Shown here: piece after piece, positions 5,857-37,229 of the stretch | Layout: each line of letters starts with the position of its first letter | How positions within the stretch are numbered: the first letter of the stretch is position 1 | DNA from: Haliclystus octoradiatus | Taxonomy: Eukaryota > Cnidaria > Staurozoa > Stauromedusae > Haliclystidae | Reading direction: 5' to 3' | Assembly: GCA_916610825.1 (NCBI GenBank) | Contig: OU744447.1 | Location: 38,477,171 to 38,541,170 of the forward strand | DNA length: 64,000 nt | Notes under the pieces: generated by a model | Told to the model about the DNA's origin: nothing | The model's input: only the letters and a program-made list of their open reading frames with translations | The model's database searches: none | Program-made: the position numbers and the translations under genes

Positions 5857-7995
5857 TTATGATTCAAATGCGTCTTCTTTGATGAAATTTTCTTGAATCT
5901 TTTTTATTATTTTGTTTGTAGCTGATGTAATCTCTTGCGTTTGTAGGTATCCTCTGTAATTGTTTTCATTACCGTTGTGTTTGAGCCTCATGATCCATGC
6001 TATAATTCTGGAGGCTTTCCATATACCATGTTTGTCTAGTAGTTTTTGAATTTCGTCGTCTTGACTTGTAATTGTTGTTGACAAGATTTCTTTTATGGCT
6101 TTTGCTTCTGCTGCACTTTCAGTCGTATCTTGTGTTAATATGTCTTTAGGCCAATTGTCGGCATCTTCCAACCAAATTGGACCGTTCCACCAAAGATCTG
6201 TGAGCTGTTTTGCTTCTGCCCCTCGGCTTCCTATGTCAGCTGGGTTTTCTCTGCCAGGAACATGTCTCCATTGTATGAATAGCTTCTCTTTGATCTTTTT
6301 CACGCGATTGTTTACGTATTGTTTGTAATTTCCAGAACCTCGGATCCAATGTAGTGTAACAGTGCTATCCGTCCAGGCGTACACGTTCCGTATTGGCAAG
6401 TCTTTAATGGCTTCGTGAACATTCCAAAGTATATTTGCTGCCATTGTCGCTGCATTTAGTTCCAGACGTGGAATAGTTGCTGTTTTTTGTGATAATCTTG
6501 ATTTTGCAACCAGTAAACCTTTACTGATACCAGACTTTTGTGCTGTGACAGCGTAGACGACTGCGCAGATACCCTTTTCACTTGCATCGCTGAAGGCATG
6601 TAGATCTATCCATTCTATGTCTTCCTTGTACGAAGGTATCGATCTAGGTACTTCGAATGTCTCCGGTTGTCTGTCCAAGAATGTTTTCCAGCGTGATGTG
6701 ATGTCTTTGTCGAATTCTTCATCCCAATTGAATTTATTTTCACAGCATGTCCTGAATATATTTTTTCCAACCAATGTTGTAGGCGATGCAAACCCAAGTG
6801 GATCAAATATTGTTGCCAAGTACTGTAGAATCCCTGTCTTGGTCGTCCTTGAAGGTGGTTGTGGTACAATTACGCTGAGATGGTCATCTTGCTTATTCCA
6901 ATAAATGCCCAGTATCTTCGAGTCGTTTTCAAGAGATCCAAGCTGTTCTTTTGCAAATGTCCTTTCTTCTTCTAAAGGGGATATTTGTGTTTCTTGTTTT
7001 CCTGCAATGCAGTTGTTGGTTGAATGCCATTTATGTAGTTGAAAACCTCCATCTTTGAAGATGCTGCAAGCTTTGTCTTTAAATCTCTGTGTTTCCTCTA
7101 TTGTGTTGCAGCCAGTGATCAAATCATCTACGTATAAACACTTTCTTATCTCTTCTGCTTCTTCAGGATATTCTTTCTTCATTGTGTCCAGATGAGTATC
7201 TATTGTTGCTGCCAACATAAAGGGTGATTGTACTAAACCAAATAATGCTCTTGTGAAACGTAATGTTTCAATCTTTGTTGGATCTTTATCTTTAATCCAA
7301 TGAAATCTCAGCGAATCTCGATCCTCTTCTTTAATCCGAACTTGTAGAAATGCCTTTTTAATGTCTCCGGTGAGTGCTATTGGTCTAAAACGATTTCTGA
7401 TCAATACATCCCATAGCTTGTTTTGAAGTGGTGGACCAGTTTCAAGGCAATCGTTTAACGATGGTCGATTAGTGTTTTCTTTTGCAGATGCATCATACAC
7501 AATTCTTAATTTTGTAGTCTCCACGTTTTCTCTGATAACTGGTTTGTGAGGTATGTAAAACTCTTTGTTCTTTATGGCGTCAGGAACTCTTTCTACTATT
7601 CCCTCTTGTAGTTGTTCTTGAATAATGTCATCATATTTCTGTAACAATCCTGGTTGCCGATTTAATCTTCTCATTAAATTATTTAATCTCCCCATGCTTC
7701 CTGCTTTGTTGCTTGCTAACTCTGGGTGATTAGGCTTCCAAATAAGGCTTGTTTCATACCATCCTTCTTTACTTTTAGTTAGTTTATCCTTAAATGTTTC
7801 AAGAATTTCTTCATCATCTGTTTTGTTTGTATCGGCCACGCCCAGTACATCCAACGAGCACAGTCTCTCGAAGTCATATGTTGAATCTTTTGCAAGATAT
7901 GTACTTCCCAATGTTGCTTCTTTGCCAGGCGACAGGATGGTCCAACCTAGCTTTGTTCTTTCCGCCACTGGCTCTCCTGGTCGACCAATTCGTGG
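5857..7995 (-). CDS. pol: BEL-1 reverse transcriptase and RNase H
   Basis: About 700 codons are open. It starts with the LGWTILSPG segment typical of the BEL/Pao protease-RT linker, then an RT with GDIKKAFLQV (first catalytic Asp) and YVDD (7121-7138). RNase H follows with HAFSDASEKG (about 6585-6600) and TDSTVTLHWIRG (about 6340-6375). It is in frame with the gag/protease segment upstream and separated from it only by one TAA (7996-7998), so no independent start codon is needed in the ancestral element. It ends in another stop that also lies in frame with the integrase. Confidence 0.9.
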   Translation of the reverse strand, partial: PRIGRPGEPVAERTKLGWTILSPGKEATLGSTYLAKDSTYDFERLCSLDVLGVADTNKTDDEEILETFKDKLTKSKEGWYETSLIWKPNHPELASNKAGSMGRLNNLMRRLNRQPGLLQKYDDIIQEQLQEGIVERVPDAIKNKEFYIPHKPVIRENVETTKLRIVYDASAKENTNRPSLNDCLETGPPLQNKLWDVLIRNRFRPIALTGDIKKAFLQVRIKEEDRDSLRFHWIKDKDPTKIETLRFTRALFGLVQSPFMLAATIDTHLDTMKKEYPEEAEEIRKCLYVDDLITGCNTIEETQRFKDKACSIFKDGGFQLHKWHSTNNCIAGKQETQISPLEEERTFAKEQLGSLENDSKILGIYWNKQDDHLSVIVPQPPSRTTKTGILQYLATIFDPLGFASPTTLVGKNIFRTCCENKFNWDEEFDKDITSRWKTFLDRQPETFEVPRSIPSYKEDIEWIDLHAFSDASEKGICAVVYAVTAQKSGISKGLLVAKSRLSQKTATIPRLELNAATMAANILWNVHEAIKDLPIRNVYAWTDSTVTLHWIRGSGNYKQYVNNRVKKIKEKLFIQWRHVPGRENPADIGSRGAEAKQLTDLWWNGPIWLEDADNWPKDILTQDTTESAAEAKAIKEILSTTITSQDDEIQKLLDKHGIWKASRIIAWIMRLKHNGNENNYRGYLQTQEITSATNKIIKKIQENFIKEDAFES

Positions 7996-9762
7996 TTATG
8001 ATGTTGTCTTAACTCTGGCGTATTCACTTGCACCAAGAACTAGGTGAATAGGTAACATCTTATCGTTTTCTTGTTCGTTCATTGACACATCTTTTAGGTG
8101 AGTATATCTTGCAATCATTTTGTCATAGTTAGGATTCGGTAGTGATAATAACTCTCTTTTATCAACTTTATTTACCTCTGCTTGAATAACACATGTTTCA
8201 TCCAAATCTGTAATTGTAATGTTGTACATTGATATTTTCCTTGTCGTTTTTTCCATCATCATTTCTATTGTTTTCATTTCTTTACGTATAGGCTGCATTT
8301 TTAGTCTGCTAATGAGAGTCGAAGAAGCGTATGAGCTTCCAGCTCCGGTGTCCAATAATGCTCTACATTTGATACCGTTGGCTCTTACTATTACTACAGG
8401 GTATGTTACATCTTTTGATTCAGCAGTTGTCAGTGTTTGTTCCTTTTGTGGTTTTGTTGCAGTGTGGTTGCCTTCGCATATTGACGTGTGATGTCTTCTA
8501 GAGCAGTTAGAACATTTCCATTTCCATTTACTCTTGCAATCAGCTGCTCTGTGATCCATTTTTGTGCAGTTGAAACATCGTTTCTCTTTCATCAATAGTT
8601 GTTTTCTTTCACTAATATCTTTAACTTTTGTACATTCTGATGATTTATGGTCTTGCTCTTCGTCTTTACAGTATACACAGCTTCTCCATGATGATTGTCT
8701 TGTATTAAATATTTTGTCCTTTTTATGTTTATGTCTGTCTGTATTTTGACGATCTTCAGAAACAAGATTTCTCTCAGTCCATTGCCAAAGTGCTTCGGTT
8801 AGATGGTTGAACTTCCATTCTTGCCAATTGTTATCTGTTCGTACTAAATCTGATCGTATACCAGGTAATTTGTCCAATGTCATTCTTACGTAACCGTTGA
8901 TTTCTGTTAACTTTCCCATGGTTTCTAACGCTTGTACATTTGTAACTAGTTTTTGATAGAACTCATTAATTTTGTAAGTATTTGTTCCATATATTGTAGA
9001 TAATGATAATATGCTTTGAATATGTGCATTTGTTACTTCACTAGGTCTACCATATTTTGACTTTAATATAGCTTTAGCTCTCTCATAACCTTCATTTGTG
9101 AAAGGTAGCCCATCAATAACAGGGCGTATTTTTTCTTCAACCAGCTCTTTCAAATATGAAAACTTTGTAACTTGTGCTAAATTGCTGCTCTTTTCTATTT
9201 CAGACTCAAATTGGTTCCAGAATCTGTTCCAGTCGATATGTGTCCCATTGAACTTTGTTATAACCAGCTTTGGTAGTTTAGCACTTACTATGTTTTGAGA
9301 GTTTTGATCTCTCTTAATAGTTTGCTCACTTTCTGCTTCTCTTTGTTTAAGCATTTGTAATTGTAGTTTTCTCTCTTCAAGTTTAAGTTCTTCTTCGTGT
9401 TTTTTGCGTAATATTTCTAATTCTCTGATAGAATCTTCTTCTGATACTGTATTGTTGATATCTTTAATATGTTTCTCTAAGGTCTCCATAGTTGTGTTGC
9501 TTAGCTTCAATTGTAATTGTAAATCTTTCTTCCATTGTCTCACTGATAGAGGTTCTTCGCCATCTTCTATTTTCAGTTCTTGGATTGATGTCTCCGTTTT
9601 GTTGATTTCCTCTAATTGTTTGAGTAAATCTCTCTTGTAATTTTCTAGTTCTCGAACATTATTGCTCGCAATAATTCCATCTGCATCTTCCACTGTTAAG
9701 TTAAGTAATTGTATTCTGTTTTGTAACTTCTTGAGTTGGCTCTCCAGCATTTCTTCCCCCAT
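7996..9762 (-). CDS. gag: BEL-1 Gag and aspartic protease
   Basis: It opens with a long coiled-coil-prone Glu/Lys/Leu-rich segment, then a DUF1759-type Gag core (PKLVITKFNGTHIDWNRFW). Two CCHC-like knuckles follow (CFNCTKMDHRAADC and CSNCSRRHHTSIC), then a DUF1758-type aspartic protease with catalytic LLDTGAGSS (about 8335-8364). The frame stops at TAA just after the protease, and the RT segment resumes in the same frame. The start at 9762 lies about 95 bp inside the 5' LTR boundary on the coding strand. Confidence 0.9.
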   Translation of the reverse strand: MGEEMLESQLKKLQNRIQLLNLTVEDADGIIASNNVRELENYKRDLLKQLEEINKTETSIQELKIEDGEEPLSVRQWKKDLQLQLKLSNTTMETLEKHIKDINNTVSEEDSIRELEILRKKHEEELKLEERKLQLQMLKQREAESEQTIKRDQNSQNIVSAKLPKLVITKFNGTHIDWNRFWNQFESEIEKSSNLAQVTKFSYLKELVEEKIRPVIDGLPFTNEGYERAKAILKSKYGRPSEVTNAHIQSILSLSTIYGTNTYKINEFYQKLVTNVQALETMGKLTEINGYVRMTLDKLPGIRSDLVRTDNNWQEWKFNHLTEALWQWTERNLVSEDRQNTDRHKHKKDKIFNTRQSSWRSCVYCKDEEQDHKSSECTKVKDISERKQLLMKEKRCFNCTKMDHRAADCKSKWKWKCSNCSRRHHTSICEGNHTATKPQKEQTLTTAESKDVTYPVVIVRANGIKCRALLDTGAGSSYASSTLISRLKMQPIRKEMKTIEMMMEKTTRKISMYNITITDLDETCVIQAEVNKVDKRELLSLPNPNYDKMIARYTHLKDVSMNEQENDKMLPIHLVLGASEYARVKTTS

Positions 9763-9836
9763 TGTAACTATATATGAATAGTTTAATCTCCAATAATTGT
9801 GTGTTGTATAATTCTGAATGTAGTCTCAAAATTCTT

Positions 9837-12203: not shown

Positions 12204-12270
12204 GTTTCGAATCATAGTTCGAATTAAAGTCTCGATAAAGAAATTAGAAATAAAAAGAAATTAATCAAGA

Positions 12271-15200
12271 ATGGCCGACGACGCTGAAGCGATTCGGAGG
12301 AGATTTGAGAGGAGATCAAAGGCTTATAATAGAGAAATAGAAGAATTTACAACGATAAAAGAACAAGAATTTGTAGCAATAGGCACTTGGAAGTCAATAC
12401 TATTCAAGGTAACTGAAGCTAGAAAACAAGTAGAAGAAACAGCGTCGACTTACCTAGACGTGCTCGATGAAAATAACGCTTTAAATGGCCAATTAGAATT
12501 GGAAATAGATCACAGAGTTGATGAATGCAGAAAACTTCACTTTGAAATCAGAGCAGAAACTACGAAGATGATCCATGAACTTGAAGAAAATGAAGCAGAA
12601 AAAACTCACAAACGCGCGTTAGAGATCGCCGCCGCAACGCAAAATAATCAAGTAAACATTAATGAAGAAAACGCAGGAGGTGAAAGCAGCCATCATGAAT
12701 CAGCCTCTTTCGAACAAAATGATCAAAATGACGTCACCGATGTAAACAACGACGGAGACGACGCAGACTCTGTTGTAGAAAGAGAAAGACCAACAGAAAA
12801 TAACAAAGAAAAAGAAATCACAGCAGGAAATCAAAGACATCAGGATGAACTCACCCATGAAGAGGGGCAACAAAGCAAAGAAAACGAAAGTGGAAATGCA
12901 ACCAAAAGAGATGACAACATAATCACAATAGAATTACTCAAAGATTTATCAAAAACAGCAGCTGAAGCTGCTGCAGTTGCAGCCATCAGAGCAATTAACA
13001 TAGAGGGCAAGGCAACACACTCAAACAAAACATCTATTCGTTTAGCTGGATTCACCCCCAATTCATGGAATGGAGAATTTAAAGGATTTCCAACCTTCCA
13101 AAAGCGATTTACTTCAGCAATGAACAATGCCGGAGTTTTGGATGATGATGTCAAGCTACAATGGCTTGAAAAATCAATACCACAGTCTTACCATACAACT
13201 ATTGAAGGACGCTCAACATTAGTCGAAGCATGGAAAGCGTTAAAGTTAGTTGTAACTGATAAAAAAATATCTGATGAACTGATGTGGAATTTCCGAAAAT
13301 TAAAACCTATACAAGATAAAGACCAAAACGTAATCCAAACATTTGTCACAACAATACGTACGCATATGATGTACCTAAAAGATTTTGGGAAAGGAAACCG
13401 TACAGAAGATGAGGAATTCATCAAAGATTTGAAGAGAAAGACAGGAGCGGAATTCGAAGATCAAATTGAAGACCAGTTGGCACAAGAAAACAGAATCGCA
13501 AGAAAAATGAACATGAAAGAAGAAGAACTCTCAGCCGACTATATTTTAGAATTCTTGGAAAGAAGACTGTTATCATCAAATTCTTACAGAACAGAAAAGA
13601 AACAGCAAACATTATCAAAGAAAGAGTCAAGGAACTTCAAAGAAGCAAAAGTCAACGTCTTGCAAACAACCAATGACCTCAATTGTCAACTGTGTAACAA
13701 TGGAAAACATGGATTAGAAGATTGTAACAAGTTCAAAGAATTTGAAGTAGCAGAGAGATCTGAATACTGTAAAAGCAAAGGCCATTGCTTTGGATGTCTT
13801 GGAAAGGGTCACATTAGACCACAATGCAAATCAGAAGTAACATGTCAACATTGTAGAAAGAAACATCACAGTTTACTGCACAGAAGTACATATTCAAATC
13901 AAGAAGCCTCAACAGCCAATATCACACAGAGGACAGCATCAACTAACACAACAACGAAACGTCTCAACAGTTCACAAGAATCTACAGCAACAAGACTACC
14001 TGTACTAAAGATCTGGATAAAAACTGGTTATAAAAATGCTGATGGTACAACACAAATTAGAGCTGCAACATGTTTGATGGATGGAGGTGCTGATACAACT
14101 CTGGTTCGAAGAAACTTTGTAGAATCATTAGGCCTTCAAGGTGAAGACACTACTATTCATTATGAAGTCGTTGGAGGAAGCCATCATAAAGAAGTCACAC
14201 AGAAGTATGAACTCACTGTAGGACGTTTGGAGCCCATGGCAGAGAAAGGAAGAATTACAGCTTATGCAATGAAAAGACCATGTGGCGCAGCAGCATCACT
14301 TCACAAAGAATTCTTTGCAAAAAATGAACATTTGAATCAAATCAAGGAAGTTGTAGACACAGATGGTGGTGAGATTGATGTTATCATTGGGAGAGATGCT
14401 CAAGAGTTACACACAGAATTACAAAGAATGACGAAAGAGAGCAGCAAATCAGCCCCAATTGGAATCGAGTTTCCATTAGGATGGACAATCGTTGGTGGAA
14501 CAACTCATGTCAGTAAGAAGTCAGGAGCAACAAGAAAAGTCACATCAGTCACACTAGCAGAAGAAACAGACATATCATCTACTGAAAATATGAGCACACT
14601 AATGATGTCAGATTTGGTTGGTGTTAACACGACGCAACGCTGTGTTTGTACAGATAAGGAAATCGAAGAAGCTAGATTTATAAAGATAGCAAAAGAAAAC
14701 ACGACAATCAATGAAGATGGGAGAATAGAAGTCAGATTACCTTGGAAACCTGGCTATCCAGAAGGACTACCAAATAATTACAAAGAAGTTTCAACCAATC
14801 TTAAGAGGAAAGTAAAACGACTGCAAGAAACAAACAAATTGGAGGACTACCAAAGAGCAATTCAAGAAGTAATAGAATCTGGATTTGTGAAAAAGGTAGA
14901 ACTCAAAGAAGGAGAAATGGCCCATTACTTAGAACACCATCTAGTTGAAAGAGATGATAGTGCATCAACTCCCAAAAGAGTAGTTTGGAACTCTGCAAAG
15001 ATCTACCGTGGACAATCAGTAGCTAAAGCATTGGAAAAGGGGCCAGATTTACTAAACTCATTGTTCAAGGTCTTCATTGGTTTCAGAGAGCAACAGATTG
15101 GATTCACAGGAGACATAAGAAAAATGTTCAATATGATCAGCATTTCTGAAGAAGATCGAAAGTATCATCGATTCCTATGGATTGAAGAAGGAAATGAAAA

Positions 15201-18039
15201 CCCAACTGCTTATGAATGGCAAAGACTTGTTTTTGGTGACCCTCCAAGTCCTGATTTGTCACAGGAAAGTCTTCACTATTTGGCAACAAAATTTGGAAAG
15301 GACTATCCAATTGGATCAAGCATCGTAAAGAATCACATCTATATGGACGATGTTGCCAGCTCCAGAAATCAACCTAGAGAAGCAGAACAAGTCATCAAAG
15401 AAACAACTCAACTGTTATCAAAAGCAAAGTTTGAAATAAAGAAATGGCATTCCAATTCCATTGAATTAGAAGAAAAAATGAACAAGAAGATTGAAGACAG
15501 TAATAACCTATCAGAAAATCGTGATACAACCATTTTGGGTCACTACTGGGAGAAAGACATAGATACAATCTCACTGAAATTGAAAAAACTACCAAAGATT
15601 GAAATTGATGCATCTTCAAAGACCCAAGAACATAAACTGTCAAAAAGAATCATTTTAAGCATGATAGCCAAAGTTTGGGACCCTCTCGGAATTCTGTCAC
15701 CAGCATTGGTAAACTTGAGAATTCCTTTACAACAACTGTGGAGAAAAAAATATGATTGGGACACAGCCATAGTGGGAGAAGATGCTGATGACTGGGTGGA
15801 TAGATTCAAACAATTAGAAGGAAAGCTGTCAACCAAAATTGAGCGCTGCATCACTGAAGAAAACAACACCGAATTGCCTGAGCTGCATGCATTTTCCGAC
15901 GGCGGAGATAAAGCTTTTGGCACATGCGTTTACCTACGACAGAAAAGAGAAGATGGCACATTTAATGTACACTTTGTAGCAGCCAAATCTTTTGTAACAC
16001 CAGTCAAAGGTTGGACAATACCTCGAACGGAATTAGTTGCTACACTAGTAATGTCTCGACTAGTAAAGAACATTGTCTCAGCATTAATGATCAAACCAAG
16101 CACAATTTCATACTGGGTTGATTCTAAAGTGGTATTGCATTGGATTAGATCAAGAACTCCTCAGATGAAGGCATTTGTTGAAGCGAGAATTAACGAGATT
16201 CAAGAAACAACCAAGATTGAAGATTTCCATTATGTTCCTTCTAAAGAGAATGCTGCAGATGCACTGACAAAACCGAACAATGTAGACTTAGAGCAATGGC
16301 ACCAAGGACCGAAATTCTTACAAGAAAAGATTATTCCAGAATTTGAAACAGCAAATATCACTAAAGAAATTGAGCTAAGAAAAGATTTGACTGAAATAAA
16401 ACCTGAAAGAAAAAAGCGCAAAAAGAAGACCTGTATAGCAAAGAAGGTGAATGCTTACTTCTCGGTTGCAAACACAATTACAAAGATGAGTGATGAAGAA
16501 TGTAAACAAATACTACAAATTGCAGCAGATAGCAACTCAATGGAAGAAGCAATTAACAAAATTTCAGAAAAATCAAACAAGACTGATCACAAAGGAGGTA
16601 AAATGAAGATATATCAAGCTCTGCAAAGAAATACTAACTTTGACGATAAGAATTTCAAGAAACTCTGTCCTTTCATTGATGACGAAGACAAAATTTACAG
16701 ATTAGGTGGAAGATTAGAACACCTTAAAGATTTCAAGCCCGACTTAGCAGCACCAATAATCATTCCGAAATGTAAAAGGAACAAAGAAAATGACCATTAT
16801 ACTAATCACAAAAAAGTCATCAACATGGTTACGAAAGAATTTCATGAACAAACAGGACACTGCGGAGTCAACCGAACACGATCTGCGATTGAACAATCAG
16901 GACTCTGGATAATTGGAGTCAACAGAATATTGAAAACAATTGGAAAGAACTGTCTATACTGCAGAAGAAGGAAACGTCCTCTGTTGGAACAAAAGATGGG
17001 TCAACTCCCAAGTTTTCGACTGGACTGTGACAAACCTGCCTTCTGGTCATCTGCTGTCGACTTCTTTGGTCCACTTAAAACGAAGCTATACCGTGGAACT
17101 GTGAAAGATGCTCATGTAGCCTTATTTGTATGCACCGTCACAAGGGCAATACACCTTGAGTTCTGTTACGACCAGGAAGGTGGGGAAGGTCTTTCAACTG
17201 AAAAATTTCTAATGGCTCTTAGGAGATTCGTCAGCTTGAAAGGAATTCAGCCTGTACAACTGTACAGCGATAATGGACCAAATTTAATTGGAGCATCTCC
17301 AAAAGTAGAAAAGTTAGTAAAAGAATGGGATATAAAAGTGCTAGAAAACGGAATTAAAGGAAATGGTTTCCAATGGTTATGGAATTGTCCTACTGCGTCC
17401 CATCACAATGGAGTTGTTGAGACATTTGTCAACTTGGTCAGAAAAGCATTGGACGCCATGGCAGATTGCTATAACAACACTTTAAAGCCTGATGAATGGA
17501 TGACTGCTCTTGCTGAAGTAGCTTATCTTATAAATTCAAGACCACTTTGGCCAAACTCAAGTGCGGATCCTATTGATATGAACGAGATTATAACACCAAA
17601 TTCCTTGCTGTATGGACATCATCTGACTCTTCCACAGCCACAAGATGAAAATAAAATACATCCAAAAGATCGTATGGCATCAATTCAGAAGCGTATTCAA
17701 ATTTTCTGGAATTATTGGTCATCGAATATGCCAAATCGTCTATTATGTCGAAATAAGTGGTTTTCACAAAGAAGAAACCTGGAAGTTGGAGATATTGTTT
17801 TGGAAAAAAAGAACAACTTAAATGGAATTACCCCGAGAGCAATATGGCCAGTCGCTATGGTAACTGAAACGTTCCCTGGTACAGATGGACTTGTCAGGAA
17901 GGTGAAGATTCAAAACAAAGCTGGAAGTTATGATAGACCTATTGCAAAGCTTATTCTATTGGCAACAAAAGAAGAAATAGATGCAAAAGCCATCAACGGT
18001 ACAGAAGAAATCCTGGCTGGTATAAAAAGAATAAGATAA
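12271..18039 (+). CDS. gag-pol: BEL-2 Gag-Pol polyprotein
   Basis: A single 1922-residue frame starting 67 bp inside the 5' LTR. Order of parts: a charged coiled-coil-prone N-terminus; a Gag core near residues 265-400 (NSWNGEFKGFPTFQKRF); zinc knuckles from about 472 (HCFGCLGKGHIRPQC); an aspartic protease at about 601-612; RT with YMDD at 1024-1027; RNase H with HAFSDGGDKAFG (Asp 1210) and WVDSKVVLHWIRS; an integrase HHCC module from His 1525; an integrase core with Asp 1597 (VDFFGP), Asp 1667 (YSDNGP) and Glu 1717 (GVVETF); and a DUF5641-like C-terminus. The protease reads LMDGGADTT rather than the usual DTG or DSG, which is odd in an otherwise intact copy. Confidence 0.96.
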   Translation: MADDAEAIRRRFERRSKAYNREIEEFTTIKEQEFVAIGTWKSILFKVTEARKQVEETASTYLDVLDENNALNGQLELEIDHRVDECRKLHFEIRAETTKMIHELEENEAEKTHKRALEIAAATQNNQVNINEENAGGESSHHESASFEQNDQNDVTDVNNDGDDADSVVERERPTENNKEKEITAGNQRHQDELTHEEGQQSKENESGNATKRDDNIITIELLKDLSKTAAEAAAVAAIRAINIEGKATHSNKTSIRLAGFTPNSWNGEFKGFPTFQKRFTSAMNNAGVLDDDVKLQWLEKSIPQSYHTTIEGRSTLVEAWKALKLVVTDKKISDELMWNFRKLKPIQDKDQNVIQTFVTTIRTHMMYLKDFGKGNRTEDEEFIKDLKRKTGAEFEDQIEDQLAQENRIARKMNMKEEELSADYILEFLERRLLSSNSYRTEKKQQTLSKKESRNFKEAKVNVLQTTNDLNCQLCNNGKHGLEDCNKFKEFEVAERSEYCKSKGHCFGCLGKGHIRPQCKSEVTCQHCRKKHHSLLHRSTYSNQEASTANITQRTASTNTTTKRLNSSQESTATRLPVLKIWIKTGYKNADGTTQIRAATCLMDGGADTTLVRRNFVESLGLQGEDTTIHYEVVGGSHHKEVTQKYELTVGRLEPMAEKGRITAYAMKRPCGAAASLHKEFFAKNEHLNQIKEVVDTDGGEIDVIIGRDAQELHTELQRMTKESSKSAPIGIEFPLGWTIVGGTTHVSKKSGATRKVTSVTLAEETDISSTENMSTLMMSDLVGVNTTQRCVCTDKEIEEARFIKIAKENTTINEDGRIEVRLPWKPGYPEGLPNNYKEVSTNLKRKVKRLQETNKLEDYQRAIQEVIESGFVKKVELKEGEMAHYLEHHLVERDDSASTPKRVVWNSAKIYRGQSVAKALEKGPDLLNSLFKVFIGFREQQIGFTGDIRKMFNMISISEEDRKYHRFLWIEEGNENPTAYEWQRLVFGDPPSPDLSQESLHYLATKFGKDYPIGSSIVKNHIYMDDVASSRNQPREAEQVIKETTQLLSKAKFEIKKWHSNSIELEEKMNKKIEDSNNLSENRDTTILGHYWEKDIDTISLKLKKLPKIEIDASSKTQEHKLSKRIILSMIAKVWDPLGILSPALVNLRIPLQQLWRKKYDWDTAIVGEDADDWVDRFKQLEGKLSTKIERCITEENNTELPELHAFSDGGDKAFGTCVYLRQKREDGTFNVHFVAAKSFVTPVKGWTIPRTELVATLVMSRLVKNIVSALMIKPSTISYWVDSKVVLHWIRSRTPQMKAFVEARINEIQETTKIEDFHYVPSKENAADALTKPNNVDLEQWHQGPKFLQEKIIPEFETANITKEIELRKDLTEIKPERKKRKKKTCIAKKVNAYFSVANTITKMSDEECKQILQIAADSNSMEEAINKISEKSNKTDHKGGKMKIYQALQRNTNFDDKNFKKLCPFIDDEDKIYRLGGRLEHLKDFKPDLAAPIIIPKCKRNKENDHYTNHKKVINMVTKEFHEQTGHCGVNRTRSAIEQSGLWIIGVNRILKTIGKNCLYCRRRKRPLLEQKMGQLPSFRLDCDKPAFWSSAVDFFGPLKTKLYRGTVKDAHVALFVCTVTRAIHLEFCYDQEGGEGLSTEKFLMALRRFVSLKGIQPVQLYSDNGPNLIGASPKVEKLVKEWDIKVLENGIKGNGFQWLWNCPTASHHNGVVETFVNLVRKALDAMADCYNNTLKPDEWMTALAEVAYLINSRPLWPNSSADPIDMNEIITPNSLLYGHHLTLPQPQDENKIHPKDRMASIQKRIQIFWNYWSSNMPNRLLCRNKWFSQRRNLEVGDIVLEKKNNLNGITPRAIWPVAMVTETFPGTDGLVRKVKIQNKAGSYDRPIAKLILLATKEEIDAKAINGTEEILAGIKRIR

Positions 18040-24346: not shown

Positions 24347-25159
<813 letters not shown>

Positions 25160-25324: not shown

Positions 25325-28300
25325 ATGGAATGTTTGCAATGCAATCATTCTCTCGGTCCATTATCGGATTATATGACATTTATTCAAGACGAAAGGTCAA
25401 ATCATTTAACGTTGAAACCTGAAGATGTATCTGAAAATGAATCAACACATTATGTTTTTGATAAGACAAATGCAAAGAAACAGACAATTCATTGTAAATA
25501 TTGCAAACAAAAACACGGCAAAATCCTGTCTTTGGTCGGAGTTACATTCCACGCTATATCGCTAGAGAGGATCTCAATCAACGACCATGCATATACAAAG
25601 AAAAGCAAATGGAACACTGAAAAAGCAACATTTGAGGGCCAAATTGAGGAACGTAAACCAGACAATTTTCATATCGATTATCCTATCCCTGTTAAGCAGA
25701 AACGCATTGTAAAGGCTGCGTCCCTTATTCCCGATGGGGATAAAGCAAGAGAAGTAGACATTACACCTTGGTGGGCTATTTTAAAATCAATCATCCCCAA
25801 AGCTTATCAGTTAGAAGGTTATTTGGAAGCAGTTCAAAATGATATTGTATTCGTTCTACCAACTGGCTATGGAAAGACATTGGTTGCTGCCATGGTGCTG
25901 GCTCATCGATCAAAACGCTACCCTCAACACACTGGACTGATGGTTGTGGAGAAAATACCGCTGGTGGATCAGCATTGCCAGAATTTAAGAAGAGAGACAG
26001 GTATGCTAGTTATGTTAATTATGTGTCCATTATCCATTTTCTTCATCTGTAAACCCTATTTTATTTACCGTTTGTACCCTGTGAAAACCGTTTGTGAACA
26101 TTAACTGGCCCAATCTTCATGAACTGTTTTTGAAAACACAGGCCATTCAACATTTCTGAACAATCTGTTTTCTGAACAGTGCCTGATCTGCTTATAAGAT
26201 GTTCATGAACAGAATTCATGTGAAATGTCTGTAAACTAGCTGTTTATGAACCCAGTGTACTTTTTCGTAAGTGTTGTTGTGATAACAATATTCAACTGTT
26301 TATAACTATTTTCTATTTTCCCTTAAAAAGGTATGAAAGTTATGGGCTTATGTGGAGAGAATGTCACCCGTCACAAAGTGGATAAAGTTAGTCAACTGCA
26401 GTATGACGTCTTGGTAATGACAGTCGAGTCTGTTTTGGTGCGTCGTGACACCTTGCCGTTGAATTTATTCCATACGATTGTCATGGACGAGTGTCATCAT
26501 GCTAGAGGTGACCATTCCTATGCAAGACTTTTGAAAGTATTGAAAACAATGTCAGCAAATGCACGGCCACGGTTACTAGGTTTGACAGCAACACCAATTG
26601 AAGTTCGAAAGGCAAGCATCAATGCCAATCTTGATAAACTAGATACATTCATGGATCATTTCCCAAACAACTGTCGTCTAGTGTGTCCTGACCTTGGTTT
26701 CATCCAAGACAAACAGCAGGACTGGAAATTAGTCGAAGCATCCACCAATCAACAATTACTTGAAAGTGCGATATTCGAATATGTCAAAGAAAAAGCGAAA
26801 TATTTTCCAGAGGTAGACCGTAGATGGCTTACGGATCAACAACAATTATTTCTATGCCAAGGGAACATACAAGGAAGGCTAAGAATGGCAAGAGTCAGTC
26901 AAACCAACCGTCACATTATTAATGAACTTTTAGCTGCCGTTGCTTGTGTGGATTTAAATTATCTGCTTGGGGTTAAAATTGCGCTGCCCATCTTAAAGGA
27001 AAATAATATACCTTATCCAACACAATTAAATGACTGTGACGAAAATTCAAAGAGACTTGATCTCCTGATGATAGAGATACTTAAACAGATTGAAGAAAAT
27101 GCGCATACCAAGATTTTGGTTTTTGTTAAGAAGAGGGACATTGCAAAAGCATTGCACGAGTATCTACTCAAGGAAATTCCCCATTGTCAACCGTTAAAGA
27201 TGGTTGGTCATGGCGGTGAAGATGGCATGTTATGGAACGGCCCTGCTGGTCAAAATGACGCAATTTATGGTTTTAACTACGGAGAAAGTAAATTAATGGT
27301 TGCTACATCTATTGTTGAAGAAGGCTTGGACATTCCGTCTTGTGATTTGGTCATTCGTTTTTCAAGCAATAAAAACTTAATCCGCCATTTACAAACACGC
27401 GGCAGAGCAAGGAAAAGCAGTGGAAGGTTCATTATTCTTGGCAGCCACAATGAAAGATTTGATGAGCTAGACATGTTAAAACGTGAGCAAGCGCTGAAGG
27501 GGATCATTAAAATGCGTTCCATAATTTCCTCTCAAACAAAAGAGCAGGCAAAAGATTTATTGCAAGAAGAAAGGGTTGAAAGGGTCATCATGCAACACAA
27601 AGAAATGGCGTTAATGAATTACAAAATTGATAATTTTAGTTTTAAATTATATGCCGTTGACATTAGTGAGAGTAAGGATTTGGTGAAATTGAAGTCTGAA
27701 ATTGAAAAAATATTCCAGAATTGTCATGTTGATATCATCAATAATAGTAATGGTAAAATATTCTCTGGATGCGAACATCTATTTCCAAGCAGCTCGGTTG
27801 TATTCTTGTTGGGTTTTACACAGCAAAGTAGCGAAGATGTTTTCAATGACGAAACTGTATCTGAAAAGTATCTTGACATATGTTTGAATTGGAGTTTCCG
27901 ATTATCAATTCTTTGCAGTAAAATACTTTTTTTCACATCGATAGATAGTACTGATGATATTAACACTAAACAATATCCCGTAGAAATGATTTGTTTTGGC
28001 AGAATGGAACAATTGCAACCAAATATTAAAATTTCTTATGTCTGTAAATATGACGGATTTTCAAGTTTTTCAGCAACATATAATTCAATAGAATACGTTG
28101 ACATTACTAGTAAGAGAACATTACAACTTAAACTTGCATCTACCTATGGCTACGCTCTCGCTACGGTTGTCGATAGAACAACAGTGAAGTTATCAATACC
28201 ATACCAAACACCACCTCATTCAACATCAGAGAATGTACCCAAGCAATGTAATATAATGACAACTGTAATTATAATGGATGATGCCTTCAATGGATTATGT

Positions 28301-31300
28301 AAAACATTTCCATTGAAGATATTTACAAGTTGGATTGAGTATGAAGCTATGGAACGTAACCACTATGAGTCACTGTTTGCGTTACCAAATGAAGACTTCG
28401 ATCTTTTATGGCTATTAAAATCCCTAGATGATTCTATGCCTTTGTCTGGGTTTAATGATTTCAAGAATTATGTCCTGGAAGATTGGAACAAGAATATATA
28501 TCAACGCTCAAATATATTGCTTGCCCTTGAAGTAATAAGGGCAGATGGATGTTTGATATTTGATATGAAGAATGAATTTTTGAAATATCGAAACAGTGGA
28601 TTGGAGACTACCAATAGAGACGCCCCATTTGATAACACACAGCAAATACATAACGCTATTGTTACTCCGTCTGAGCGGGTTATTGCTGGCTCAAATATCA
28701 TTACACCTGAGAGCCGTTTAATTCGAATGTTTCCTGGAAAGCGGTTTATCACAGTGACATTGAGAGGGGATAATGGTGGAAAAGTGGCAAATGAAAAAAA
28801 TATAGACAAAATGAAAGAAATATTGGCAAATGGAATTGAAATAATTGGACACAAGTTTCAATATTTGTGTGCAAGTGGAAGTCAACTGAGAGATCATAAA
28901 GCTAACTTTGTTGAAGCAGAATCCTTTGTTGATGTGCAGAAAATGCGCGACTTAATGATCCATAAACCCAAATTTTCACACATTTCAAAGTATTCGAGTC
29001 GTTTGGGATTATTTGCTACGACAGGCACTGTTCTTGGTGATGTTGATTTAAAAAATGTAATCTCTAAATGTCCTGACATTGAAGCTGTAAATGGAACCTT
29101 GCTGACTGACGGGTGTGGAAAGATTTCAAAGAAATTTCTAATGGATTTACTAAAATCAAAACACGATATAGACTATTGTGCAATTCAAATCCGTTTGGCT
29201 GGCGCAAAAGGTGTGCTGGTTATTGTAGACAATCTAACCACTGATATTGAATTTCAAAACGTCACTGCGTCAACACGTATCATATTGCGCCCATCTATGG
29301 TAAAATTTGATTCTTTAAATCCTGAGTTTTTATTAGTGACCAAATCCCAATGGCTCCCCTTGACTTTGAACAGAGAGATAATTACGTTACTTGATGCCTT
29401 GAAGTCTCGTTCTGATACTGACTTTGATGCTTTTATTATGGCATTGCAAAATGAAAGGATTCAGCACATGGCCGACCGACTGCATACAAATGCTTTAGCG
29501 CAGCAATGTCTGAAACAATACCTACCGCAAGCACTTATGGATTGTGTGGCTGATCAATTCAATCTCACACTCGAGCCATTTTGGTTTTCGCTATTGCAAC
29601 ATACATATCTTTTGGATTCAAAATATTTACGAGAAAAAACAAATATTCCTATTAAGAATGGCTGTCGACTAATGGGTGTGGCTGACCCAACGTTTACATT
29701 GGAGCCTGAATGTGTGTTCTGTTTTATTGAACATGATTCAAGCGATTTCAATGGTGTTTTAACTGGAAATGTTATTATATACAGAAATCCTTGTCTACAT
29801 CCTGGAGATGTGAGGCTTGTCAAGGCGGTTGAAAACCCTCGCTTGAAGGAAATGAACTTGAAGAATGTTCTAGTGTTTTCAGTTTCAACGCAGAGTGAAT
29901 CGTCTTTACCGGACAAATGTTCTGGAGGCGATCTTGATGGGGATCAGTTTTCAATAATCTGGGATCAAAATATTATTTTAAATCGTCATCAAGTTCATCC
30001 CCCGCTTGACTATCAAAACATCGGCAAGACACAACATACATCACTTTCATCAGTTGATTTCAACAATCAAGAGATGCTTGCAAAATTCTTTACAGACAAC
30101 ATGAAGAACGATGCATTAGGTCGCGTTGCGAACATGCATTTAGCATTAAGTGATCATTTGTCAGCTACTCATAAGCTTGCAACAGCTTTATCAAAATCAC
30201 AAAGCGTTGCGGTTGATTTCCCAAAGACAGGAATTGTCCCATTGGTTCCTAAAGAGGCTTTGGACGTAGTAAAACAAAAAGGATTTCCAGATTTCATGGA
30301 GAAAGAACCATGTTACAAGTCTGAAAAAGTACTTGGTAGACTTTATCGCTATTGCCAAGGGCTTATGTTTAACAAAGATCTTGTAAAGTCACAAAGAACG
30401 TCTAAATTGGACCATCCATTGGTTTTAGATGGCAGAGAACTATTTGATGATGAAGTGAAGAAGATATATAAACACTTTTGTATAGACATGAAACGATTGA
30501 TGAGCCGATTCGAAATAAAAAATGAAGCAGAAATAGTTTTATGTGAGATGTTGTTGTGGCCAACAGTATTTAGTTCAAATAGAGGCAAAGCCTCTGCATC
30601 ATTAAAAAACGCCAAGGATGCCCTATGGAGAAAGTATTTGGCTATATTTTACAGTGGAGTGAATACAAAAGAACAGTTTCGATTGAAAGCATCTTCTTGG
30701 TACACATCGTGTTATGAGGATGAAGAGTATAACTTTAAATCATTTGCATGGATAATACATGAACAGCTCACATCTCTTAAAACCACAAACAGCGAATGTC
30801 ATACTCATTTAGCTGAACAACCACATGTATTGATTGGAGTTAATTGCAAACATTTGTTTCAAAATTTTGCACCAAAATTAGTTTTGAAATTTGAAAGAGC
30901 CCGGACTGTAGAAAATCAAATCCAAGATGCACTTCCAAATGAAAAAATTAAGATGTATGGCTCTGCGTCAGTGTTCGTTAGTGGCGATGGTTCGGATATA
31001 GACCTATTGGTTTATGGTAAGGATTTTTAGTAATGAATTATTTTTGTTTTACAATTGATGCTAAGTTATTTATAATGCTTCGTTATCCTCTTGAAAACAT
31101 TTTCAGATAAGAGAGTGAAAATTGAAATTAACAGAATTTTTATATATATGGCATTAAAATTCACAGACATCAGTATTGAGTTAACCTTTGTGGAAGAAGT
31201 CCATGAGTTCATGAACATGAAATTGCTCAAAAGTTGATGAACTGTTCATGACTGTTCATAAACCCACAAAATATATAACGAACCCACTAAATAATGTTCG

Positions 31301-34300
31301 TGGACTGGTTCATGAACACTTCATTAACAGTTCATGAACTTTTGAGCAACTTCACGTTCATGAACTCATGGACTTCTTCCACAAGGGTTAACTCAATACC
31401 CAATCAGACTCTGTAAAATCCCCACACTTTGTCTAATAGCTGACACTCTCGGTTATTGATGTCTGTGAATTTTAATGCCATATATAAACAAATTTAGGTA
31501 ATTTCAATTTTCACTCACTTATCTGAAGATGTTTTCAAGAGGATAACAAATCGTTGTAAATCATGTAAAGGTGGAACGACTTAATCGATTAACCATTTCC
31601 TATGACAACTACCGGTTTACTTTAATACTAATTAGTTAACCATCCTGTTTTGTTTTGAATGTATTCAAAATAATAGATCTAATTCAAAGTGTATGTCTGC
31701 TTCAGTTGATAGAATTTTATTGTTTTGAAATTTTATTAATACAAGAAATTAATTTTTCAATAAAAGGAATCAATTTACGTTTCGAATGAATCATTAACAA
31801 TGTAAACCAACTGTTTGTTTGAGCTTAATGCTGTGAAATTGACACCTTTGTCGCAACACAACAGTCGTTCATTCGCTTCAAATGCAGTTCAAAGAATGAA
31901 GCAAAATTTTATTGCCTTCTAAAGTTTGGCATGAACATAAGAATCAGTTTATGAACTAAAGGTTTACCTTTGTTTTCATATTAAACCAAGATTTACAGAA
32001 CTGGAGTAGTTTCAAATTTATCCCTGCACTTCTTTTGTAGAAAAATATAATTGCTTCTTTCTTTTAAGTATATTATGAATGTAAAAGCAGCTTTTTTTAG
32101 ATATCTAAATACTTCATAACTAATGCCGACAATAGGATTATAGGATTTCCATACTTTTGATTGGCTATTTTTTTTTCTCCAAAATAATGGTGTTTTTGCC
32201 TAGTTGACATTCGAAATCAAGTCAAAAATAAATGAGATGATATTTTTCATTATTTTTCATTATTTTTCTATTGGGTGATGAGTAGTAAAACAATAAAGCT
32301 ATTCACCACCGGTTTTCTCATTTCGATTAACCAGTTGTGAAAATTCCTGCACCGCCTGATCCTAAAATCATGTCTCTTAATTTATCTCTGTCTTTTATTC
32401 GAAAGGTAATAATTTCGCTGTGAGTAATCCAAAGGCGTATCTCGAAGGTCACGTTGTACAAGGTCTACAGGATAATATAGATAACATGATACTTCAGCCT
32501 GGAAATATACCAATTGTACGTTGCAAGGTCGACACAGATGATGACATGGTCGACGTTGATATTTCATGCAACAGAACTGGATATTTAAAGACAATTTGCA
32601 TCCGCTCTGTTTACAAGAGAAATCCTAATTTCTTTGTTGTCTTTTGGACTCTTGTTCACTGGGCTAGGCTGAGTGGTATCCTCAAGAATTTCAAAGAGGA
32701 CATAAGTTTATTACCAACAGCTGAATTCTATGCAATCATTTTAAAGCTAGTGGGTATAGATCTTCCGACGGAAATTAATGATATCAACAGCGATGATGAT
32801 TTATCAACAGCATTGAAGGAAATTGATAACGTCAATGGAAGTGATATAATTGGTCATATGATTTTAAAGTTTTTCAGAAGTGGTACAGAATGGCCCGAGG
32901 AGAAATGTTTCAGGTATAGTTAGACCCTTATTTCAAGCCCTCGGTAAAATTATGGAAGAAATTGTCATTAGAAATACAGATTACTAATTTCTAATAGTCA
33001 ATATCTTCCAATATGTTATTGCTGCAGCCCTGAAGAAAATAAACATTACACCATTAATGTAATACACGATTTTAAAAGCACAATAGAAGTAAACACAATC
33101 GGAGAGTGAAAATTTCACAATGATAGACCATACAAATTCTTCTCCAGAAAAAAATATTAATTAAATATTGTTGTTCTTGTAATATATTCTGTAATAGTAG
33201 CTCAAATTTAATTGCAATATAAGCATTCTGTTTTGGATCAACTTGATCAATTGATAATTGATGAATAAATTTTGTGTCGGAATGACCAAGGTAAAATAAC
33301 ATTGCTGTAAAGTACAGGTAAATCCTCATTTTTAAAACTTGCCAAAAACAGATACATTTTTCATTCAGTATTTTCCTTTCAGAATATCATCAAATTATTG
33401 GCTGTAATTAATTGTTAAATATGGTAATAAATTCACAGACATAGATAACTAAGAGTGCCAGTCAGTACTATACAAAGAGCCAGTATTTTGCAGAGTCTAA
33501 TTGGGTATCTAGTGCTACCAAAACTAAATCCATGAAGGTGTTGTGAAAACACCATTGGAAATGAAAAAAGTGAAAACAATAAAATTTCAAGCCATGTGAA
33601 TATCCATATCCACGATACTAGCATGTGAAAATGCCATAAAAACATCATGAAGTTTCACGCTTTTTTAATGGTTTTGGTGTAAGTAGTGGAGGGTAGGCCT
33701 GATCTGCTGAATTGCAGGCATTTCATGAATATAGCTATCAAAGCAATTTTGCACTTTTGATTACTAAAAAATTACCATGGCAACATCATTTGAATGACTG
33801 TGGTTATAAATTGTGAATTATGTCTTTTATTAGTTAATCACTGTCTGTTATATTAACCTTGTATACTATGTGAAACCTGTATATTATATATCAACCAGCT
33901 ATGAGAGGCAGATAAATTGACCACTATAGACAGGTGGCCTTTATATACAGTGTTGATTCAATGGAAAATACTATTTCCTACATAGTAAGAATGACCACTA
34001 TAGACGGGTGGCCTTTATATACAGTGTTGATTCAATGGAAAATAATATTTCCTACATAGTAAGAATGACCACTATAGACAGGTGGCCTTTATATACAGTG
34101 TTGATTCAATGGAAAATACTATTTCCTACAAAGTAAGAATGACCACTATAGGCAGGTGGCCTTTATATACAGTGTTGATTCAATGGAAAATACTATTTCC
34201 TACATAGTAAGAATGACCACTATAGACAGGTGGCCTTTATATACAGTGTTGATTCAATGGAAAATACTATTTCCTACATAGTAAGAATGACCACTATAGG

Positions 34301-35245
34301 CAGGTGACTACTGTAGCAGATTGACTGTACTATGATACAAATATTAAACACTTTCTGTGTAGTCTGGGTTATACAAACACAGATGTTGTTTTATAACGTG
34401 CATCGTTCAATATATTGTCATAATTATCACGCGTATCGTTCAATATGGTTGTAATTATTATCACACATATCATTCTATATGAGAAAAGCAGTTTACCTCG
34501 GTTACATAGCCTTCATCATGTCATTCAAATGTGACGCTTTATAAAGCTTCATTCACTCGTTCTATTTGTTAATATTGATTTTAACAGGTATGAATGGCCC
34601 AATGGTATCCATACAATCGAAGTGTCATGTAGTCTGATGAAGGTCATCAGTGCCATGTGTTTAAAAGCATTACACATTATATTATACAGTAAAGATATGA
34701 CTGAAGTCAATAAAAATTCATCACAGGATACAGAAAAAGTTCAAATCATTACCAAGCGTTTGTCAAAAGGTCTATCGCTATCTATTAGCACAAACTTTGA
34801 TTTCTTCAAGACTAAATTATTAGCTGCCAGTGGAGTGATAAAGATTGAATTCTCCCTCAATAAAAACAGTGTTGATAGCACAGGTGATTATGTTCTGATG
34901 GTTGCCCACGGTAGCCGATTTTCATTGAATAAACTACTCGATCAGTTGGTCGATGTGTCCAACACCCAATCAATATTGAGAAAGAGCACGAATTCTGGAA
35001 AGTATTTTATGGACGGTTCACAGTGGATCAACTTATTTCGAGGTAAGGATTAATCCCTTTGTTGTGATGGATCAGAATTTCAATATATCTGGACCAATAA
35101 TGTTCACTATTAAGCAATTAGCACACGCTTTCATATGAGCCATTGATATTTGGTGCACCAGTACGCATGTAAGGAGAAAACAAGAAGGCAAGTTCAAAAA
35201 GTTGAAAAAATTCATGGACCAGTTTCATTTTTCCTACATATAATG

Positions 35246-35317
<72 letters not shown>

Positions 35318-37229
35318 TTATATAGCGCCACTTCTATAATATATTAATCCAGTGGCAATTTACATAGTTTTGTTCTTATCAATAATTTATAGCTGCATTT
35401 TATTGGATATTGGTAATTCATGGCTACCGTATTGGTGAGCGACCCGTGAAAACTGATTTAAAAACTGACATCGACCACAACCAGAAAATATTTCAATTTT
35501 CCAAATATATTTCACATACCAGTTTATGTCTATTTTGAATGCGAAGCCCTCAACAGTCAGCACTAATTAATGTTGATTTGTTCAAAACTCAACAAGAGCG
35601 GCAGCCAATCATTCCATTGCTTGCTTGTTTCTTAGCCATGAAATTATAACTTTCATAATGAGAGTTTCATAATAATGAGCCGATCATAACTAAGAACACA
35701 TTTAAACCACAACACATCAATGTCATTCTACATATGGTTATAAATTTAGGTGATAAAGAAGACCGTGTTATCTTCAAACCGTTCACGGGTAAAGGCCATA
35801 AGACACACCGCAACAAAGAAATATGCGGTGTTGAGTGGAAACAGAACTTGAATATAAGAATGACATCAGAAGAATATTGGAAGAAATTGAAATATTCACT
35901 TGCGTAAGTTATTGCCTAATATAAAAATGTTTACAAGAAGAATAATTAGTCTAACAAGGTGACAGAGGGAATAATTTGGGAGGAAATTCAAATCAAACTT
36001 CAAAACAAATTATCAACACAAATTTGGAAGCAAAATTTAGAATCCCAAAAGGTTAAATATTTATCAAACCCCATTGTGAGATATATAAAGATATATATTG
36101 TAGTTTTTTTTCAATAATTCAACATTTGATTTCTCAAACTATTTAATATAAATCTCTTAGGATCAAATTAAAGACACAACTGGCTATGTTCCCAAAAGAT
36201 AAACCTGAACTATTAGAATCACTTCAGTTTGTGGCACGTTTTGGTCTTGTTTATGTCATAGAACCCAGTCTTTATTTAAGTGATTTGAAAACATCAGTGT
36301 CGATGGATGAGCTAGATACTGCACTGCTAAAGGGAAGGACTCAAAGACACCTATATAAGAGGGACGAGTTTAATTTTGAAAAACGTATCAATCTAATGAA
36401 AGCCAACGTGAAAAGCGATGACGATCAAGATTGCGAAATGGTACCACTTCCCAAAATAAATCAAAGTTACACACGAGAGAAGCAGCGACCTCTTATGAAG
36501 AAGAAAAACACATTGCTTGCATCGTCCTTTGTCTCTTTGTGGCCGGAAGGAAAAAAAGTTGATTTTATTGGAGTTCTAAAAGAGTTGGGATTTGTTATTG
36601 ACCCTGCTGCAAGCCAAATGGATCATGAGACAGATCTCATATGGAATATCAGTCTACATTTATCTCTTTCATTTGAAGCAACAATGCTTCTTGATGAAGA
36701 CTTTTGTTTCAAGAAAATGCATGAAAGACGCGTCACGTGGGTCCATGGATCTATCCTTGATTGTGATGGGTCATACGATGTAAGAACGTCGTTATATTCA
36801 AAGGAACAGATTGATGATGAACACAGTGCTTCCGAAAAGATATTTCCCAATGGTATACCTTATGACCAGCCTCTATTTCACAGACAAGAACGCACAGAAA
36901 AACTATTGTTTAGCAAAGCATTCCCAATAGCAAGCCGCAGCAAAGTCATGCATCTTCGACAGAGCACAGAACAGTGGATATTTGTTCAGCCAAAAAGTAC
37001 GACGGAAGCAATTGTAAACTATTGCAAACATTACTACATGCACATGAATGATATTGTATTAGATGATGAAGGTATGGAAATGAGTCTACGTTTTCATACA
37101 AAAGAGTTACAACAAATGGTTAAAGCGAATAGTACCATGCCAAAATTAGCTGATAAGACAGCTGAGGAAGTTTTATCACAGATTAGAAGAGCAACAGAAT
37201 TAGTTACTATTAAACTAAAAGAAAAATAG
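25325..37229 (+). CDS. Fused helicase / RNA-dependent RNA polymerase / nucleotidyltransferase
   Basis: Six exons: 25325-26000, 26331-31016, 32406-32913, 34588-35042, 35750-35903, 36161-37229. All have GT-AG borders and matching phases, totalling 7548 nt (2515 codons plus stop). Residues 1-100 hold a C3/C6...C57/C60 cluster. The SF2 helicase of Dicer/RIG-I type has LPTGYGKT (178-185), DECH (278-281), TATP (311-314) and QTRGRAR (580-586). The cellular RdRP (about 1000-1690) has TDGCGKIS (near 1152), LAGAKGVL, RPSMVKF (1212) and catalytic DLDGD (1426-1430). The nucleotidyltransferase has GS (1769-1770), D1781/D1783 and VDVDIS (1836-1841). About 550 C-terminal residues are unassigned. Expected role: unwinding RNA, copying it into dsRNA and tailing RNA ends in small-RNA amplification. 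The ATG has a good context (G at -3, G at +4), but an upstream exon is possible, since an AG acceptor lies at 25302. Confidence 0.93.
31082..31547. repeat. Palindromic (foldback-type) repeat in intron 2 of the RdRP gene
   Basis: The outer arms are inverted copies: GTTATCCTCTTGAAAACATT at the left, with its complement ending at 31547. Inner segments, including GTTCATGAAC motifs and a CATGAGTTCATGAAC block, are also inverted around a centre near 31280. No clear target duplication is seen. It could fold into a hairpin of roughly 170-bp arms in the pre-mRNA. Confidence 0.8.
33869..34327 (-). mobile_element. Pogo/Tigger-like MITE with an internal 74-bp minisatellite (intron 3)
   Basis: The ends resemble those of the copy at 62661-62836: TGTGAAACCTGTATA at the left and the complement of CAGTCAA at 34327, each next to TA. 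Between them a 74-bp unit (starts GACCACTATAGACAGGTGG) repeats from 33919 to about 34310, with five full units and a partial one, starting at 33919, 33993, 34067, 34141, 34215 and 34289. The CAGT...AACCTGTTATAACGG terminus and the TA flank suggest a Tc1/mariner-pogo origin. Confidence 0.65.
35247..35315. repeat. (AAT)n microsatellite in intron 4 of the RdRP gene
   Basis: A pure run of about 23 AAT triplets. Confidence 0.95.

Follow-up and report, generated by a model that had tools for sequence, protein, structure and literature searches.

A 64,000-nucleotide stretch of the Haliclystus octoradiatus (Staurozoa) genome (assembly GCA_916610825.1, contig OU744447.1, positions 38,477,171 to 38,541,170 of the forward strand), called the window below, holds a gene at positions 25325..37229 that, at the level of sequence and structure models, joins an end-sensor type domain, a superfamily 2 (SF2) helicase of the Dicer/RIG-I type, an RNA-directed RNA polymerase (RdRP), a nucleotidyltransferase and a KH-like fold in one frame. 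The product is predicted, with a probability of about 0.72, to be a self-contained enzyme of the helicase-bearing RdRP kind, one that copies and tails RNA and acts in the amplification of silencing. The gene and its parts, in positions of the window, are as follows (CTD, C-terminal domain).

25325..37229, + strand: whole gene, six coding exons, 2515 codons plus stop, from splice sites, phases and open frame
25325-26000, 26331-31016, 32406-32913, 34588-35042, 35750-35903 and 36161-37229, + strand: exons
25325..25639, + strand: N-terminal zinc domain of the RIG-I-like-receptor CTD type, CxxC pairs at residues 3/6 and 57/60
25772..26000, + strand: helicase, first part (ResIII/DEAD), Walker A GYGKT at 25865-25879
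26331..27574, + strand: helicase, remainder, with DECH, TAT and QTRGRAR; Helicase_C (PF00271, E 2.1e-13), ResIII and DEAD matches
28664..30352, + strand: cellular RdRP domain (PF05183, E 2.3e-120), catalytic DLDGD (residues 1426-1430) at 29930-29944
30857..31016, + strand: nucleotidyltransferase, first part, with GS (residues 1769-1770) and DID (D1781, D1783), from alignment A2 and PDB matches
32406..32913, + strand: nucleotidyltransferase, remainder, with the third catalytic Asp, D1839, in VDVDIS and a WTLVHWAR segment, from alignment A2, PDB and Pfam matches
34739..34984, + strand: KH type I-like fold inside exon 4, after the nucleotidyltransferase
36450..37226, + strand: conserved C-terminal tail domain, also present in relatives

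All exon junctions are GT-AG with matching phases, the joined frame contains 0 internal stops, and the six exons would be spliced into one mRNA. The positions of the motifs were confirmed on recheck. A first-pass annotation of this DNA had described one gene of six exons and 2515 codons, with helicase, RdRP and nucleotidyltransferase in that order in a single frame and with the RdRP and the GS-DID half of the nucleotidyltransferase in the same uninterrupted 4.7 kb exon 2. Splice sites, phases, Pfam matches on the exon pieces and on the joined sequence, and the exon structure itself bear this out; the three enzymes are present as first read, and two modules, the zinc domain at the N-terminus and the KH-like domain, had been overlooked. 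A search with the whole protein matched relative P0001 at 26% identity across 95% of the length (E 7.7e-184), and pairwise comparison with 12 further relatives gave alignment along the protein, with the exception of P0042, in which the N-terminal part and almost the whole tail are missing. A gene-model artefact was rejected on the strength of the splice sites and frame, the P0001 alignment and the same domain order in the relatives. In the H. octoradiatus assembly (261.9 Mb, 33 contigs) one RdRP locus was found, this gene, and the C-terminal part of the protein matched only itself, which rules out a repeat family. The introns, the chromosome-scale contig of 39 Mb and the relatives in many eukaryotes do not suggest that the gene came from bacteria or viruses. 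An 18316-base contig of the same assembly holds mitochondrial genes, among them COX1 with in-frame TGA, arranged in a medusozoan-like order.

The helicase is of the Dicer and RIG-I-like type, a profile built from the relatives matching those helicases, and stands N-terminal to the RdRP on the same chain, as is expected of a helicase-bearing RdRP. Pfam analysis of the exon pieces gave PF05183 at 403.5 bits over profile positions 2-581 of 582, so that a whole cellular RdRP domain is present together with its catalytic DxDGD; the solved structure that matches it best is plant RDR2. The nucleotidyltransferase is interrupted by a 1389-base intron between exons 2 and 3. The exon 2 piece alone gave a weak MTPAP-like match (Pfam, E 0.052), and with the exons joined the MTPAP-like central palm was matched at E 1.3e-05. 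Each of the ten A2 sequences, among them the window's protein, matched the MTPAP-like family at E <= 0.01, and the Gly, the Ser and the three catalytic Asp were invariant (10/10). The A2 profile matched Trypanosoma TUT4 (TbTUT4) in the PDB at E 2.9e-11, and also Drosophila Tailor, Cid1 and GLD-2. By its GS, three Asp and family profile match the module is a non-canonical RNA nucleotidyltransferase of the Cid1/TUTase (terminal uridylyltransferase)/GLD-2 type, and the active site, as read from the sequence, is complete. When 8000 candidate proteins were scored with the A2 profile none reached E <= 0.001; the full-length relatives lay outside the length limits of this search, which therefore says little about separate nucleotidyltransferases.

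The zinc domain searched alone matched PF11648 at 28.7 bits, above the cut-off of 25.6. Its structure model (predicted local distance difference test, pLDDT, 92.2) found its best Foldseek and VIA-align matches in the CTDs of LGP2, MDA5, RIG-I and DRH, among them in Foldseek the DRH-3 CTD structures with 5'-ppp RNA (6m6r, 6m6s). The modelled domain has the fold of the RIG-I-like-receptor CTD, an RNA-end-binding domain, with its zinc cysteines; it lies at the N-terminus and not C-terminal to the helicase, from which the chain runs on into the RdRP. When the H. octoradiatus genome was scanned with PF11648 nothing matched, this gene included, and no positive control scored, so that the absence of RIG-I-like receptors from the genome does not follow. 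The beta-alpha-alpha-beta-beta-alpha fold of KH type I was recovered after the nucleotidyltransferase by a structure model and VIA-align. In the tail, 57/240 aligned residues are identical with the Effrenium relative and 49/226 with that of Diplonema.

By analogy with known systems, the protein would make antisense RNA on targeted transcripts and so amplify the silencing of transposons, viruses or genes. The end sensor, and perhaps the KH-like domain too, would hold template or product; the helicase would move along or remodel double-stranded RNA (dsRNA); the RdRP would copy the template; and the nucleotidyltransferase would extend the 3' end either of the template, recruiting copying as RDE-3 does, or of the product. 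In Caenorhabditis elegans, poly(UG) tails made by RDE-3 recruit RdRPs (PMC9276528, in part; here and below this marks a paper cited from an accessible portion of its text); PMC11236994 (in part) is likewise cited on the C. elegans pathway. In Dictyostelium, the helicase-RdRP RrpC is required for secondary small interfering RNAs (siRNAs) 5' (upstream) of the trigger (PMC3661229, in part). The H. octoradiatus genome holds Piwi-domain matches at three places (11 matches) and one Dicer_dimer match. A role in small-RNA synthesis would be consistent with these parallels.

Several observations weigh against this assignment. By sequence the zinc domain is ambiguous: Yippee-Mis18 was matched by 9/14 members and RIG-I_C-RD by 4/14, a PDB search with the zinc-domain profile brought up no RIG-I-like chain at E <= 1, and the model found no Foldseek match at E <= 0.001. 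The KH-like model likewise had no Foldseek match at E <= 0.001, and no GXXG motif, the loop by which KH domains contact nucleic acid, was found throughout exon 4. The profile check proposed at first pass was clear for the helicase and for the RdRP, while the nucleotidyltransferase of the window's protein scored 25.8 bits, just short of the Pfam cut-off of 27. The sequence gives no indication of the order of the steps or of which nucleotide is added. Finally, the RdRPs of Branchiostoma seemingly have no part in RNA interference (RNAi) (PMC6396948, in part), and an animal RdRP therefore need not act in RNAi.

The Branchiostoma case would also suit a real polypeptide with a role outside RNAi, namely a sensor-polymerase whose RIG-I-type domain recognises foreign RNA ends and which copies such RNA to dsRNA and tails it for decay or signalling, and most of the structures closest in fold to the N-terminal domain are innate RNA sensors. 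We regard this as unlikely, though to be kept in mind: the RNAi protein DRH-3 has a domain of the same fold (PMC6351104), RrpC acts in secondary siRNA production as cited above, and the own genome has the Piwi and Dicer_dimer matches.

The predicted silencing enzyme has many relatives of the same build. An RdRP-core search among long proteins gave 254 matches, of which the best 120 were taken, and domains were counted over 161 proteins (the window's own and 160 from the searches). An RdRP match was present in 127/161. RdRP and nucleotidyltransferase occurred together in 99 of the 161, the RdRP preceding the nucleotidyltransferase in 99/99. A helicase match of > 380 residues with RdRP, nucleotidyltransferase and KH region was found in 72 of the 161, in identical order in 72/72 and with the zinc domain upstream in 67/72. 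The domain models were seeded by 67 found proteins and the window's own, so that these match by construction; proteins outside the seed, e.g. P0042, P0057 and P0064, also show the same order. Active-site motifs were kept in most or all of the 72 (Walker A in 68, DExH in 72, motif VI in 72, RdRP DxDGD in 71, nucleotidyltransferase in 71), and the distances of the motifs from the protein start are similar among full-length members. Helicase and RdRP without a nucleotidyltransferase match were found in 7 proteins, 4 of them < 1810 residues and one, P0100, marked partial.

Among the named owners of the full set are Hydra (full-length relatives P0046 and P0050), Hydractinia, Rhopilema, Macrostomum, Artemia, Oopsacas, Effrenium, Prorocentrum, Diplonema, Physocladia and Pelomyxa. 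The groups spanned include a sponge, a flatworm, dinoflagellates, a diplonemid, an amoebozoan and a chytrid and, without a zinc-domain match, an oomycete. The check for the same order in animal genomes, suggested at first pass, thus found it in Hydra, sponge, flatworm, Artemia and others. A single-polypeptide complex in an animal, as then supposed, is plausible, and the occurrence in non-animal eukaryotes rules out an animal-only fusion.

The Aphanomyces sequence, marked partial, has everything except the zinc-domain match; P0128, from Aphanomyces astaci, has helicase, RdRP, nucleotidyltransferase and KH region all present. Aphanomyces and Saprolegnia belong to the same order. PMC4791657 (in part), by contrast, gives Saprolegnia no helicase-bearing RDR. 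The EukProt relative P0110 (3298 residues) also has a dsRNA-binding domain, PF00035. P0140, a transcriptome protein that according to its name is one assembled transcript of length 7047, has all domains; in both the RdRP tree and the helicase tree it sits next to the window's protein, which could reflect contamination, transfer or long-branch error.

The RdRP tree, unrooted, comprised 35 fused and 19 other sequences hand-picked from the 127 RdRP-matching proteins. None of the 19 has a nucleotidyltransferase match; P0147 and P0151 have helicase matches, and P0151 also a weak KH-region match. A single branch splits the 35 from the 19 (Shimodaira-Hasegawa-like approximate likelihood ratio test, SH-aLRT, 84), and a nearby branch with support 100 groups the fused Physocladia and Pelomyxa sequences with the others. 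The tree fits either one fused clade or a fused ancestor with parts lost in the others. The window's RdRP falls on the fused side, as do those of Hydra, Hydractinia and Aphanomyces (support of 84 and 100 for the deep branches nearest to it, two in number), in a tree built without the RDR gamma sequences of PMC4791657. In the helicase tree (22 fused and 16 Dicer-like sequences, one of them, P0041, on a very long branch, helicase domains only) two label changes are needed between fused and Dicer-like; one clade of fused helicases is likely, though it is not clean here.

Congruence was examined with 29 of 30 picked proteins, P0127 being left out for its short helicase match. The helicase, RdRP and nucleotidyltransferase-KH trees share 12, 12 and 17 of 26 splits, against a mean of ~0.2 and a maximum of 3 with shuffled labels; such agreement, far above chance, indicates that the parts have travelled together for long and that the fusion is old. 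It also speaks against repeated, independent fusion of partners that tend to recur. That history would draw on the support of 84 only for the fused/other branch, the support-100 branch with Physocladia and Pelomyxa, and the two label changes in the helicase tree. Physocladia and Pelomyxa nevertheless carry the full set in the same order, so that their place equally fits loss of parts in the other sequences, and repeated fusion appears quite improbable. That the gene model merges a helicase-RdRP gene with a neighbouring nucleotidyltransferase gene deserves hardly any credence, for although the model rests on genomic sequence and the nucleotidyltransferase is split by the intron, the GS-DID half lies in the RdRP exon, the order is constant in 99/99, and P0140 holds all domains under the name of a single transcript.

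With its range over animals, a fungus, an amoebozoan, dinoflagellates, an oomycete and a diplonemid, the fused protein could go back to the common ancestor of eukaryotes or close to it, though the tree is unrooted and transfers and contaminants are possible. The same arrangement in such widely separated branches suggests that the machinery for amplifying silencing RNA may once have been a single molecule. More tentatively, and with the odds against it, one protein with end sensor, helicase, RdRP, tailing enzyme and KH domain may already have been the amplification arm of RNAi in the last eukaryote ancestor or soon after. It would have run a tail-then-copy cycle, one and the same molecule extending the 3' end of a targeted RNA and starting the copy from that tail. 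The multi-protein RdRP complexes seen in nematodes, fission yeast and ciliates would then have come about by later division or reassembly of these activities. The RdRP complexes of distant model organisms are sets of polymerase, helicase and tailing enzyme, and a conserved one-chain version would explain why those activities recur together. The protein speaks to how old RNAi amplification is and what form it first took, offers a single expressible protein for studying the coupling of tailing and copying, and gives non-nematode animals a concrete RdRP to test.

Other features of the window lie in the introns and around the gene. Intron 2 holds nested inverted repeats at 31068-31561 (arms of 108 nt, 89%, and 79 nt, 94% complementarity) resembling a foldback or miniature inverted-repeat transposable element (MITE) insertion, and intron 3 a 74-base tandem unit at 33918-34306 (5.3 copies, 97% matches). 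An ATT microsatellite of 812 bases (24347-25158) ends 166 bases ahead of the start codon. Two Pao-type retrotransposons lie at 12265-18036 (+ strand), with a single open frame of 1924 residues, and at 4502-9825 (- strand), and a saposin-domain exon lies to the right of the gene at 57967-58332 (+ strand).

Among known systems, RIG-I-like receptors share the helicase type and the CTD fold. They differ in that the CTD here is on the opposite side of the helicase and that polymerase and tailing enzyme are joined to it; no CARD was among the Pfam matches of the window's protein. The Schizosaccharomyces pombe RNA-directed RNA polymerase complex (RDRC) consists of Rdp1, Hrr1 and Cid12, and Hrr1 belongs to superfamily 1. 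The RDRC likewise combines an RdRP, a helicase and a predicted poly(A) polymerase, Cid12 (partly after PMC9276528, in part), but as three proteins. Hrr1 is an orthologue of ZNFX-1 (PMC9276528, in part) and not a Dicer/RIG-I-type helicase, whereas the window's helicase matches proteins of that type; the parallel with Hrr1 drawn at first pass is therefore replaced by one with C. elegans DRH-3.

Fusions of helicase and RdRP are known from Dictyostelium (RrpA-C), oomycetes, Hydra and Nematostella, with helicases separate from those of Dicers (PMC4791657, in part). Like the window's protein they carry a helicase of the Dicer/RIG-I type N-terminal to a cellular RdRP; the difference lies in their description in the accessible portion of that paper, which names helicase and RdRP and by which the members from Dictyostelium and Nematostella were compared. 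The string 'nucleotidyl' has 0 occurrences in its main text, and a literature search of incomplete coverage (most subscription papers and preprints lay outside it) returned no account of a nucleotidyltransferase, end sensor or KH module in helicase-RdRP proteins. Of the triple fusion, which the first-pass annotation did not recall as described, the helicase-RdRP part was thus already published. The window's protein adds a member to an old family on which little has been written, and the architecture of that family is richer than in the published descriptions found.

In C. elegans, EGO-1/RRF-1, DRH-3 and EKL-1, with CDE-1 and RDE-3 in the pathway, provide the same kinds of activity: RdRPs, tailing enzymes and a Dicer-related helicase whose CTD has the fold seen here. 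There these are separate proteins, and the CTD of DRH-3 follows the helicase where here it precedes it. No Tudor domain, which would be the counterpart of EKL-1, was among the Pfam matches, no search beyond Pfam having been aimed at it. The Haliclystus protein is best read as the equivalent, in a single polypeptide, of the nematode DRH-3/RdRP/tailing machinery.

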